Positions 22,663 through 44,799 of a stretch of 64,000 bases of DNA are shown one piece after another. The stretch lies in the NCBI RefSeq assembly GCF_024357955.1, contig NZ_JANEYT010000020.1:1-64000 (forward strand), in the 5' to 3' direction. The notes beneath the pieces are model-generated. The model was not told the origin of the DNA. It did not search any database and was given only the letters and a program-made list of their open reading frames with translations. Positions within the stretch are counted from its first letter, which is position 1. Every line of letters begins with the position of its first letter. Source of the stretch: Photobacterium pectinilyticum (GTDB taxonomy: Bacteria; Pseudomonadota; Gammaproteobacteria; Enterobacterales; Vibrionaceae). A program made the translations under genes and the position numbers.

Positions 22663-22693
22663 AAAAAAAAAGCACTGCGTTGGGGCGCAGTGC
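22663..22693 (-). terminator. rho-independent terminator of gcvB
   Basis: Stem GCACTGCG/CGCAGTGC (22672-22679 with 22686-22693), 6-nt loop, followed on the minus strand by nine T from the A-run at 22663-22671. Confidence 0.92.
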
Positions 22694-22852
22694 CAAGAAT
22701 TTTTTTGACAGACAGGTCAAAAATACAGGAAGTAAAATTGGTAGATTGACTACCGAACCGGAATAACCCGGACAATATGCAAACACAACATCGCAACGGC
22801 GTGGTCGGTCAAATGCCTGAGGGCTAAAAACTTGGCCTTGCTCACCGTTGCG
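22663..22852 (-). ncRNA. gcvB: GcvB small regulatory RNA
   Basis: GcvB is an Hfq-dependent sRNA that represses many amino acid and peptide transporter mRNAs. The minus strand upstream of gcvA carries its hallmarks in the right order: the G/U-rich target-binding stretch GCGATGTTGTGTTTGCA, then ACTTCCTGTATTTTTGACC followed by TGTCTGTC, both near-identical to E. coli GcvB, and an 8-bp GC-rich terminator stem with nine T. Position divergent from gcvA is also as in enteric bacteria. The length is about 190 nt; the 5' end is set from the promoter and may be a few bases off. Confidence 0.93.
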
Positions 22853-35038: not shown

Positions 35039-35317
35039 CTAAGCCTGTTGGCTTTCCAATTGCTCCAGCCGTGCAGTCAGTGCCGCGACTTGCTGCTCCA
35101 GGGCAGCAATGCGGACTTCGGCGCTAGGCTGCGAGTCGACTTTTTCTATTTTGGGCACCCGTGCGCTCGACTTCCAACTCTGCAATGCTTTGATGATCAG
35201 CGGCATTGGTAGGGGATCAACTAACCTCGATTTAATTAAGGCCACCGAGGGCTCTTTGCCTTCTGCAACCAAGGCGTCGATAGCGTTGGTAAGGGCTTGG
35301 GTGATATCTGAGGACAT
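35039..35317 (-). CDS. small protein with C-terminal coiled coil
   Basis: A 92-residue protein that I cannot place in a family with certainty. The first half (SSDITQALTNAIDALVAEG, SVALIKSRLVDPLPMPLIIKALQSWK) looks like a helical, possibly DNA-binding unit similar in style to the N-terminal domain of KfrA-type proteins. The C-terminal third is a short leucine-heptad coiled coil (IAALEQQVAALTARLEQLE, about residues 70-88), which suggests dimerisation. It may share an operon with the DUF2789 gene upstream (29 bp gap). Confidence 0.65.
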   Translation of the reverse strand: MSSDITQALTNAIDALVAEGKEPSVALIKSRLVDPLPMPLIIKALQSWKSSARVPKIEKVDSQPSAEVRIAALEQQVAALTARLEQLESQQA

Positions 35318-35346: not shown

Positions 35347-35577
35347 CTATTTTCTCAGTAACGCATCAAGTTGGTCAATGACCTCGCACCAGTCGGCATC
35401 CTGCTCTTGTGATTCTTTGAGGAAACGCTTTTGTGAAGGTTGCCAAAAATTGGCTTCAGATAACAGTTCATGCTGGGCGAGGCGGTGCTCAGCCAGAAAG
35501 GTTTCGATAAACTCTTTGGAATTGTTCAGTCCTAACTGGCTGAATAGAGAGGCAAGGTTGTGGTTGAAGGTTTCCAT
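35347..35577 (-). CDS. DUF2789 family protein
   Basis: A 76-residue protein with the DUF2789 pattern METFNHNLASLFSQLGLNNS, then HELLSEANFWQPSQKRFLKES and DADWCEVIDQLDALL. Such proteins are common in Vibrio, Shewanella and Pseudomonas and have no known function. I take the ATG at 35577 with AAGGAG five bases before it, in place of the GTG two codons upstream. It is divergent from the first csrB gene. Confidence 0.82.
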   Translation of the reverse strand: METFNHNLASLFSQLGLNNSKEFIETFLAEHRLAQHELLSEANFWQPSQKRFLKESQEQDADWCEVIDQLDALLRK

Positions 35578-35681
35578 GGGCACTCCTTGGCTAGCGCAAT
35601 TGATAAGGGTAATTATAGAGAAATATTTCAGGCAGCTAGCTTTGAATCATTAATCATAAACATCCATTCATCTTGTTGCTG

Positions 35682-35699
35682 TGTGAGAGATCTCTTACA
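35682..35699. promoter_or_regulatory. VarA/GacA/UvrY-type upstream activating sequence of csrB1
   Basis: The 18-bp palindrome TGTGAGAGATCTCTTACA matches the GacA-family site TGTAAG-N6-CTTACA with one mismatch. It lies about 145 bp upstream of the inferred csrB1 start, a usual distance for this activator. Confidence 0.85.
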
Positions 35700-35834: not shown

Positions 35835-36261
35835 GCTGTTTTGTCAGGGAGGAAATCCGTAATATTAACCCTGTCGGAAGGAACTGACGGAACGGAACAG
35901 GAAATAAACCAAGGATTTGGTTAGTCTCAGGATGAGACCGGTGTACTAGGATGGTATGTCGAACAAGGACTGTGAAGGGATAGCCGAGGAACGGCAAAAT
36001 GGTAAGCAGGACGTTTACCAGTCAGGATGACAAAAGGACCACTTCAGGACGAAGTTAGGGACACCTCCAGGATGGATGTTGAGAGTCAGGACAGGATGGA
36101 CTGGCGGGTCAGGAAGGCCACAGGATCACTTCAGGACGAAGTAAAAAGGACAATGCTGAAGGAATACAGCTGTCAACGGAATGATGCAGGGAGCACCATA
36201 GTAGCGGGATTGCTGCAAGTAAGACCTAAGGGCGCAACGCAAGTTGCGCCCGCTCTTTTTT
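35835..36261 (+). ncRNA. csrB1: CsrB-family sRNA, first copy
   Basis: CsrB RNAs sequester the translational regulator CsrA through many GGA-containing hairpin loops. This roughly 425-nt region has about 30 GGA motifs by my count, many as CAGGA or AGGAT in small hairpin loops (CTTCAGGACGAAG, CTCCAGGATGGAG type). Short blocks are identical to E. coli csrB (GGACACCTCCAGGATGGA; GGTCAGGAAGGCCA), and the 3' part GCAGGGAGCA...AGTAGC is also shared. It ends in a strong terminator and is near syd, as in E. coli. The 5' end is approximate: a poor -10 (TATCTT, 35822-35827) fits an activator-dependent promoter. Confidence 0.93.
36230..36261 (+). terminator. rho-independent terminator of csrB1
   Basis: Perfect 9-bp stem GGGCGCAAC/GTTGCGCCC (36230-36238 with 36243-36251), GCAA tetraloop, then CGCTC and six T. 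Confidence 0.92.
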
Positions 36262-36517
36262 CTGCTTCCCACGATCGTTCCAGATACCCGATCGTTTACT
36301 CTTCGTTTATTCACTTTTCTTTGAAAATACCTCATCGACTGTTGATGTTCGGCGCCAGGTGAGTGAAATACTTTGTCTAGCCTCTATATCACTAAACAAC
36401 CCATGACCTGCCGATCATATTGCTAAACTCGTAATAATTTTTACTATTCTCTGTAATGAAATTGAAATACGGTATTTTACGCTTGCGCAACTTGGTGCAG
36501 ATATGGCCTTGCCTTCT
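36262..36517. other. spacer between csrB1 and the second upstream activating site
   Basis: These 256 bases are AT-rich in the second half and hold no credible gene. An open frame at 36027-36362 only exists because it runs through csrB1. I see no further repeat or hairpin of note. Confidence 0.5.
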
Positions 36518-36535
36518 TGTAAGAGATCGCTTACA
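36518..36535. promoter_or_regulatory. VarA/GacA/UvrY-type upstream activating sequence of csrB2
   Basis: TGTAAGAGATCGCTTACA is a perfect TGTAAG-N6-CTTACA site. It lies about 180 bp before the csrB2 start. An additional half-site TGTAAG follows at 36540-36545. Confidence 0.88.
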
Positions 36536-36670
36536 AAGCTGTAAGAATTGCAAAGATCATCTTTAGATAAAAGAGAAGGGTTTCCTTATTTTATCTATCT
36601 TAATTAAAGACTTAATTGTTTCATTTTTATGGTGAATGATCTATCAAGAGGCATGCTGGAAGATAGTCAA

Positions 36671-36698
36671 TTGTATGAGTGAGCGAAAGGCGTAATAT
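36671..36698 (+). promoter_or_regulatory. csrB2 core promoter
   Basis: TTGTAT (36671-36676) and TAATAT (36693-36698) are spaced by 16 bp; the RNA would start at or near the G of GTCGACAGG (36706), the same first bases as E. coli CsrB. Confidence 0.7.
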
Positions 36699-36705
36699 GG
36701 CCCTT

Positions 36706-37171
36706 GTCGACAGGATAGCGGCGCAGGAACGGGAACGCAGAAGGATTCTGCAAGCCTAGGAAGGGCTGTGCTAACAGGGTTGTTAGCTGACAAGATGTCA
36801 CGGACACGGAATGGATACCGTCGGGGATCAGGAAGATTACCGTCAGGATGAGTAGGACAGCTTTTGGAAAAGCCGGAACACCTCAGGGATTGGGGCTTTA
36901 AGGATAGTGCTCTAGGACAGGGCAAGAGGACAACTTAAGGATAAGTGTCAGGACCCCTTCAGGATGAAGGCATGGACACCGCCAGGAAGGATGAGAGAGT
37001 CGCACAAGGACAACGCGACAGGTAAAGGAGCTACCAAGGACAACCCGGGGATGGGGTTTAGGGATTACCGCTAAGGATTTAGACCAACAAGGATAGTGCA
37101 GGGAGCACCATAGTAGCGGGACTGCTGCATGTAAGACCTAAGGGCGCAACGAAAGTTGCGCCCATTTTTTT
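36706..37171 (+). ncRNA. csrB2: CsrB-family sRNA, second copy
   Basis: A second CsrB-type RNA of about 466 nt with some 33 GGA motifs by my count, again mostly AGGA or GGGA in short hairpins (CTTCAGGATGAAG, CGCACAAGGACAACGCG). Its body differs from csrB1, but its last 65 or so bases, from GCAGGGAGCACC through the terminator, are almost identical to it. The start GTCGACAGG matches E. coli CsrB. Its terminator T-run touches the stop codon of the convergent DUF3301 gene. Confidence 0.93.
37142..37171 (+). terminator. rho-independent terminator of csrB2
   Basis: Stem GGGCGCAAC/GTTGCGCCC (37142-37150 with 37155-37163), GAAA tetraloop and seven T at 37165-37171. Same stem as csrB1 with a different tetraloop. 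Confidence 0.93.
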
Positions 37172-37477
37172 CTACTCCCCTGGCATCCTGTGGGGGGGGA
37201 TATGGATAGTCAGAAGGTGGAATCCTTTCATTACAATATGCCCTTGGTAGGCATCTTGCCCACTGGCGGAAAATTCAAACAGATAAGTGGTATGCCACCC
37301 CCAACGACCGTTGCGATCACGCAGGCGGTGCTCTCCCCGTGCAGTATTAAGCAGTTGTAGCCCTAAATGCTCACAGCGTTGGTTGATAAAATAATTGGCA
37401 CGCTCAGTCTGCCGCCGCTGCTGCCAAAACAGATAGCCAATAATTGCCAGCAGTAAAATACCTAATAGGTTACCCAT
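37172..37477 (-). CDS. DUF3301 family membrane-anchored protein
   Basis: A 101-residue protein with an N-terminal membrane anchor (LLGILLLAIIGYLFW, residues 4-18) followed by the DUF3301 pattern QQRRQTERANYFINQRCEHLGLQLL and RNGRWGWHTTYLFEFSASGQDAYQGHIVMKG (split around residues 55-85). Function is unknown. It lies downstream of the DUF3549 gene on the same strand with a 53-bp gap, a pair typical for vibrios, and ends exactly where the csrB2 terminator ends. Confidence 0.82.
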   Translation of the reverse strand: MGNLLGILLLAIIGYLFWQQRRQTERANYFINQRCEHLGLQLLNTARGEHRLRDRNGRWGWHTTYLFEFSASGQDAYQGHIVMKGFHLLTIHIPPHRMPGE

Positions 37478-44608: not shown

Positions 44609-44695
44609 GCGCGCCGTAATTGGATGATTGCGTTTCGACTCAATCATGCCGATTGCACTAAACTTTAATTAATCATTCACACATATCGGCACGTC

Positions 44696-44799
44696 TTCCG
44701 GGGTGCCCAGCAGCTTTTCGCGAAGCTGTAACGCCTTTGGCGTTGTCTGGGTCGGTAAGATGGGGTATGTGGACGCCTAACCCCATAGAGGATTATTCA
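44696..44799 (+). promoter_or_regulatory. structured rpsB leader, probable S2 autoregulatory site
   Basis: The leader holds three hairpins in series: CAGCTT/AAGCTG (44711-44728), AACGCC/GGCGTT (44730-44744) and ATGGGGT/ACCCCAT (44760-44786), the last directly before the ribosome site GAGGATT. A GGGGTGCCC stretch at 44699-44707 could pair further. In E. coli S2 represses its own operon through the rpsB leader; that role here is inferred. Confidence 0.6.

Follow-up and report, generated by a model that had tools for sequence, protein, structure and literature searches.

The interval between the DUF2789 and DUF3301 genes of Photobacterium pectinilyticum raises the question whether it holds one csrB gene or two, and, in the latter case, how old the pair is and whether each copy could be controlled on its own. 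To address this we analyzed a stretch of 64,000 nucleotides containing the interval (the window), the remaining genome, and the corresponding locus in other Photobacterium species and neighboring genera.

Tandem csrB genes and their signals

A search of the whole window against Rfam 15 gave two matches to the CsrB family (RF00018) on the forward strand, at 35905-36263 (138.1 bits, E 3.1e-37) and at 36861-37175 (107.5 bits, E 5.6e-28). Both span model positions 1-356, i.e. the full length, and both exceed the gathering score of 71 bits. Two CsrB-type genes in tandem had been claimed by a sequence-only reading of this DNA, and the two full-length matches above threshold bear this out. The copies, A and B, lie head to tail on the same strand with approximately 450 bases between them. 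Their features and flanking genes are:

35347..35583, minus strand: DUF2789 gene (PF10982), upstream flank
35682..35699, plus strand: putative VarA/UvrY (GacA)-type activator box of copy A, TGTGAGAGATCTCTTACA, 1 mismatch to TGTAAGN6CTTACA
35841..35871, plus strand: predicted core promoter of copy A, weak -35 TTGTCA, conserved CGTAATAT before the start
35872..36258, plus strand: csrB copy A (class A), about 387 nt, 29 GGA; Rfam match, start from the conserved 5' motif
36230..36258, plus strand: predicted intrinsic terminator of copy A, stem 36230-36251 with 9 pairs, 7 of them G-C, then a T-run
36518..36535, plus strand: putative VarA/UvrY-type activator box of copy B, TGTAAGAGATCGCTTACA, 0 mismatches
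36671..36704, plus strand: predicted core promoter of copy B, TTGTAT, conserved GCGTAATAT before the start
36705..37170, plus strand: csrB copy B (class B), about 466 nt, 33 GGA; Rfam match, start from the conserved 5' motif
37142..37170, plus strand: predicted intrinsic terminator of copy B, stem 37142-37163 with 9 pairs, 7 of them G-C, then a T-run
37172..37477, minus strand: DUF3301 gene (PF11743), downstream flank

The limits proposed earlier for the pair were right within a few tens of bases; the first of them, 35835, however, precedes the predicted start of copy A by 37 bases. The 5' end of copy B reads GTCGACAGG, and E. coli csrB begins likewise. Elsewhere in the window the Rfam search also placed a GcvB RNA (22664-22851, minus strand, 77.7 bits) and a t44 RNA (44658-44781, plus strand, 67.7 bits).

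About 30 and 33 GGA motifs had been noted, in agreement with the 29 and 33 counted in the predicted RNAs. Within the slightly wider intervals 35835-36263 and 36660-37175 there are 31 and 33 GGA, compared to means of 15.9 (maximum 24) and 19.1 (maximum 28) in 1000 dinucleotide shuffles of each. The densest 430-base stretch in the rest of the window, both strands considered, contains 14. In the predicted folds 15 of the 29 GGA of copy A and 9 of the 33 of copy B are located in hairpin loops. If the GGA were kept in place and the remaining bases shuffled 200 times, the mean was 3.2 (maximum 11) for copy A and 3.3 (maximum 7) for copy B, so that the loop signal is weaker for copy B than for copy A.

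The sequence-only reading had further assigned an activator site and a terminator to each copy, and a box, a 5' motif and a stem with T-run are indeed seen for both. The boxes are 18-bp palindromes with the conserved 5' motif approximately 180 bp downstream in both copies, and their consensus, TGTAAGN6CTTACA, is what we take to be the VarA/UvrY/GacA-type site. Of 163 segments of 380 bases taken elsewhere in the window, only 3 contain such a box with up to two mismatches. Termination at both stems is predicted from the sequence pattern, and the terminator of copy A belongs to a conserved 3' module. A plain sigma-70 scan called no promoter at either predicted start and found two sites in the region compared to a shuffle mean of 3.0, i.e. 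no excess; the predicted RNA starts are therefore placed by conservation alone.

The same plan is found in 46 Photobacterium arrays (the window, 17 named loci and 28 further stretches) with 120 usable copies. A box with up to two mismatches lies upstream of 117 of these copies and is missing from three. From the box centre to the 5' motif, 80 of 83 class A copies measure 176-182 bp; among the class B copies, 33 of 37 could be scored, and 31 of these fall within 175-180 bp. This bears on the idea that one long transcript from the first promoter runs over both copies and is cut into two. Their common strand and the short distance of about 450 bases would permit this, but a strong predicted terminator follows copy A, nearly every copy in the genus has its own box, and the 5' motif stands at a near-fixed distance in 111 of 116 scored copies, a plan common to the orders A-B-A, A-A-B and B-A. 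We regard a single transcript as very improbable. Between box and core promoter, copies A and B have spacers that are 64% identical, close to the shuffled baseline of about 63% obtained from pairs of A copies. A separate tuning of the two copies, as suggested before, is possible judging from these upstream regions.

The position of the pair had been likened to that of csrB near syd in enteric bacteria, and the gene order agrees with this. Upstream lie QueF, Syd, DUF2310, a 92-aa frame and DUF2789; then follow csrB A and csrB B; downstream lie DUF3301, DUF3549, YqcC (DUF446), and then a pseudouridine synthase and a flavodoxin, named TruC-type and YqcA-type from their positions. The 92-aa reading frame (35039-35317) beside DUF2789 had no Pfam match. 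In E. coli the order is queF-syd-csrB-yqcC-truC-yqcA, and the frame queF-syd-[csrB]-yqcC-truC-yqcA is common to both. On the basis of this gene order the pair occupies the ancestral csrB locus, which here contains additional genes. Copy B was also considered as a CsrC and this was rejected, as the CsrC locus is found between engB (yihA) and yihI and copy B at the csrB locus.

Two old classes in an array of the genus

The bodies of the two RNAs are 71% identical, the whole predicted RNAs 75% and the 3' modules 88%. Judged by DUF3549, P. lutimaris is the nearest named relative of the window (95%). Its copy 1 is 98% identical to window copy A over the RNA body, and its copy 2 is 94% identical to window copy B. 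Since copy A resembles copy 1 of P. lutimaris at 98% and its own neighbor at 71%, the pair represents an old duplication. In an IQ-TREE analysis of 94 rows a branch with an SH-aLRT of 96 separates the 26 class B rows from all others, in a tree in which 23 of 91 inner branches have a support under 80, long branches were flagged by the program, and three rows have an odd base make-up. When a FastTree tree of 157 rows was re-rooted on a Vibrio copy, class B came out as a clade of 38 rows, with a support of only 30. Class A is defined as all copies outside class B; class B, to which window copy 2 belongs, is the longer of the two.

The only hint towards a recent duplication in this species is the 88% identity of the 3' modules. 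Against it, P. lutimaris and other relatives contain a separate counterpart for each copy, and the AU test rejects a tree that unites the two window copies in one clade (p 1.6e-35). A recent origin has next to no probability and is rejected on the body identities, the AU test and the class B branch. As read from these comparisons, classes A and B predate the species and the copies are old paralogs.

The array itself is common. Of the 46 arrays, 43 are uncut by contig ends; 29 of these comprise three copies and 14 two. The orders over all 46 are A-B-A (15), A-A-B (13), A-A (8), A-B (4), B-A (4) and A-A-A (1); two of the four A-B arrays are cut by contig ends, and one further cut array was scored as B alone. 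The window has the order A-B, whereas P. lutimaris and two other relatives (L074, L090) have A-B-A. In P. profundum (G353) three tandem copies and one elsewhere lie above the cut-off. The window pair is thus one form of a widespread two- to three-gene array and not peculiar to this genome.

Class B accounts for 37 of the 120 copies, with a median of 32 and a maximum of 46 GGA among the 33 scored. The longest RNA among those scored, of about 645 nt and with 46 GGA, is the class B copy 1 of another Photobacterium locus (L083). A decay of copy B after duplication could explain its lower model score (107.5 compared to 138.1 bits) and its fewer GGA in predicted hairpin loops. On the other hand copy B keeps a perfect box, the promoter motif and a terminator, its body is 94% identical to its P. 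lutimaris counterpart, and its class recurs through the genus with a median GGA content of 32. We give decay very little weight.

Outside the genus, each of six Vibrio loci fetched has one csrB beside DUF3301. The stretches from neighboring genera were chosen from strong matches and do not form a survey; among them two copies occur in five of six g4 stretches and in the one g6 stretch, and one copy in those fetched from g8 and g9. A stretch of a further genus (L096, g10) contains four csrB copies in tandem, and neither flank gene (DUF2789, DUF3301) was found in it. In P. rosenbergii two tandem csrB lie beside a porin-like gene at a contig end (L110, C16:63216-64332), and could represent a second array or a misassembly.

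The missing third copy and the likeness of A copies

The window pair looks like a shortened form of this array. The 3' half of window copy B is 94.6% identical to P. lutimaris copy 2 over 224 bases; its 5' half and promoter reach only 78.8% over 472 bases. From the 3' half of copy B through the flank, the identity to P. lutimaris copy 3 (A') is 83.8% over 580 bases, and the sequence after the copy B terminator matches the flank of that third copy. In P. lutimaris the 3' ends of B and A' are near-identical. A 3' half like copy 2 followed by the flank of copy 3 is what a crossover in the 3' module deleting A' would leave behind, and judging from these alignments the window most likely lost A' by a crossover in this shared module.

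An assembly collapse of a true A-B-A' array would give the same picture. The assembly consists of 200 contigs, the near-identical 3' ends of B and A' in P. lutimaris could favor such a collapse, and in three relatives, P. rosenbergii, P. marinum and P. aquae, contigs break within the array or close to it. On the other hand the window contig continues across the site, a search of the genome turned up no leftover contig carrying another strong copy of this place, and two-copy arrays are also present in assemblies of two to three contigs (G053, G074, G077, G080, G087). A third copy lost in assembly is rather unlikely, while still deserving consideration beside the crossover.

That two genes are present follows from the covariance model, the motif content, the boxes, the terminators, the synteny, the conservation and the age taken together. 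We therefore propose, with a probability of about 0.92, that the locus comprises two independent tandem csrB genes at the ancestral csrB site, VarA-activated and CsrA-titrating, as the remnant of an A-B-A' array. Phosphorylated VarA (of the UvrY/GacA type) would bind approximately 180 bp upstream and switch on each csrB, and each RNA would end at its own terminator. With about 30 GGA, many of them in hairpin loops, each RNA could bind CsrA dimers, and this titration might free CsrA-repressed mRNAs. The pair would be what remains of an old A-B-A' array with its two paralog classes. Transcription, VarA activation and CsrA titration by the two copies are predictions from the nucleotide sequence.

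The A copies of one genome are often very similar to each other. Over 39 within-genome A-A pairs, identity in the RNA body averages 92.6% (median 96.2, range 74-100), and that in the spacer between box and core promoter 63.8%, compared to a shuffled baseline of 63.2%. In 13 of the 36 genomes with exactly two A copies, these resemble each other more closely than they resemble the copies of the nearest other genome; in 23 they do not. Comparison genomes at least 99% alike were skipped, which favors the 13. A strict concerted evolution of A copies is thus only partly borne out. Since 13 genomes speak for it and 23 do not, homogenization by gene conversion is likely in some lineages and not general. 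In four loci (L055-L058: P. salinisoli, P. arenosum, P. halotolerans, P. galatheae) the two copies are 74-78% identical; these are old and diverged. The low spacer identity of A-A pairs is no proof of conversion, because matching copies in different genomes also reach low values in their spacers (63-95% identical in 20 hand-picked pairs).

Tentatively, and with somewhat more doubt than confidence, one may read the array as a cassette for dosage: the A bodies would be kept alike by conversion behind unrelated spacers, B would be a separate sponge, and crossovers in the 3' part would change the copy number. One class A product would then answer to several promoters, and class B would represent a separate and longer CsrA sponge with up to 46 GGA.

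Other Csr RNAs and known systems

The tandem pair had been thought to double the CsrA-titrating capacity. This is too simple, as the genome holds two more csrB genes and a csrC-like RNA; the pair represents two of five Csr RNAs and the capacity is not doubled. The further csrB genes above the cut-off of the genome search are located at C111:173275-173634 and C126:28651-29013. The former (L108) is flanked by a porin-like gene on one side and, on the other, by two genes identified by eye as toxR and toxS. Its RNA shares 90.9% identity with window copy A, and the trees place it together with the third tandem copies (A') of P. lutimaris, L074 and L090. CsrA is encoded once in the genome, and there is one unbroken close relative of UvrY (75% identity).

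The csrC-like RNA (approximately C33:55556-56004, or L107:8557-9005) has 23 GGA over 449 nt. It reached 39.3 bits in the whole-genome search, below the RF00018 gathering score; a cmscan of the region with E up to 1 gave no CsrB or CsrC match, and no activator box with fewer than four mismatches was found within about 600 bp upstream. The gene order, with names given by eye, is polA, engB, cytochrome c, the RNA, methyltransferase, yihI, hemN, compared to polA-spf-yihA-csrC-yihI-hemN in E. coli. Its promoter letters GGCGTAAAGTA and its GCGACAG/CTGTCGC terminator match E. coli csrC. All 12 further Photobacterium loci and all 4 Vibrio loci examined show a GGA peak in the interval from the cytochrome c gene to YihI, and EngB farther out. 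These loci were chosen for having a weak match; among them the methyltransferase was unmatched in 3 and PolA in 1 of the 12, and HemN in 1 of the 4.

The Photobacterium array bears on the question why bacteria carry several CsrB-like RNAs. One locus combines often near-identical A and A' copies behind unrelated spacers with a diverged B, while copy number and order vary by species, so that a species comparison might separate dosage, promoter tuning and RNA divergence. The genome in addition shows a csrC-like copy under the Rfam threshold. Literature searches limited to open-licence papers showed no account of the csrB array across Photobacterium. PMC6262261 ascribes four putative csrB copies in P. 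profundum to Kulkarni et al. 2006. In RNA-seq of the same species, according to PMC3505737, the CsrB transcripts PBPRB1150a and b are higher at high pressure; these are chromosome-2 locus tags and are not tied to the DUF2789-DUF3301 array.

Tandem Csr/Rsm RNA genes as such are already in print. For Aliivibrio salmonicida PMC6262261 describes csrB2 and csrB3 as one csrB beside another, ascribed to duplication (one section prints 'Aeromonas salmonicida' once, the figure legend and other text Aliivibrio). According to this paper, that pair is a recent duplicate in one species, whereas the Photobacterium classes are old, genus-wide and found in arrays of two to three. The tandem rsmX of Pseudomonas resemble the window pair as tandem RNA sponges of the CsrA/RsmA kind; in PMC7911923 such pairs are listed as 75-87% identical, and P. 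brassicacearum rsmX-2 has its own UAS and is GacA-dependent. The rsmX RNAs differ from the window RNAs of about 387 and 466 nt in their length of about 110 nt, their few GGA and their genus. E. coli csrB shares family, locus and the 5' and 3' modules with the window, its box is identical to that of copy A in 18 of 18 letters, and the distance from box to start is about 182 bp. E. coli K-12, however, has one csrB at this locus, and the window has two, of diverged classes.
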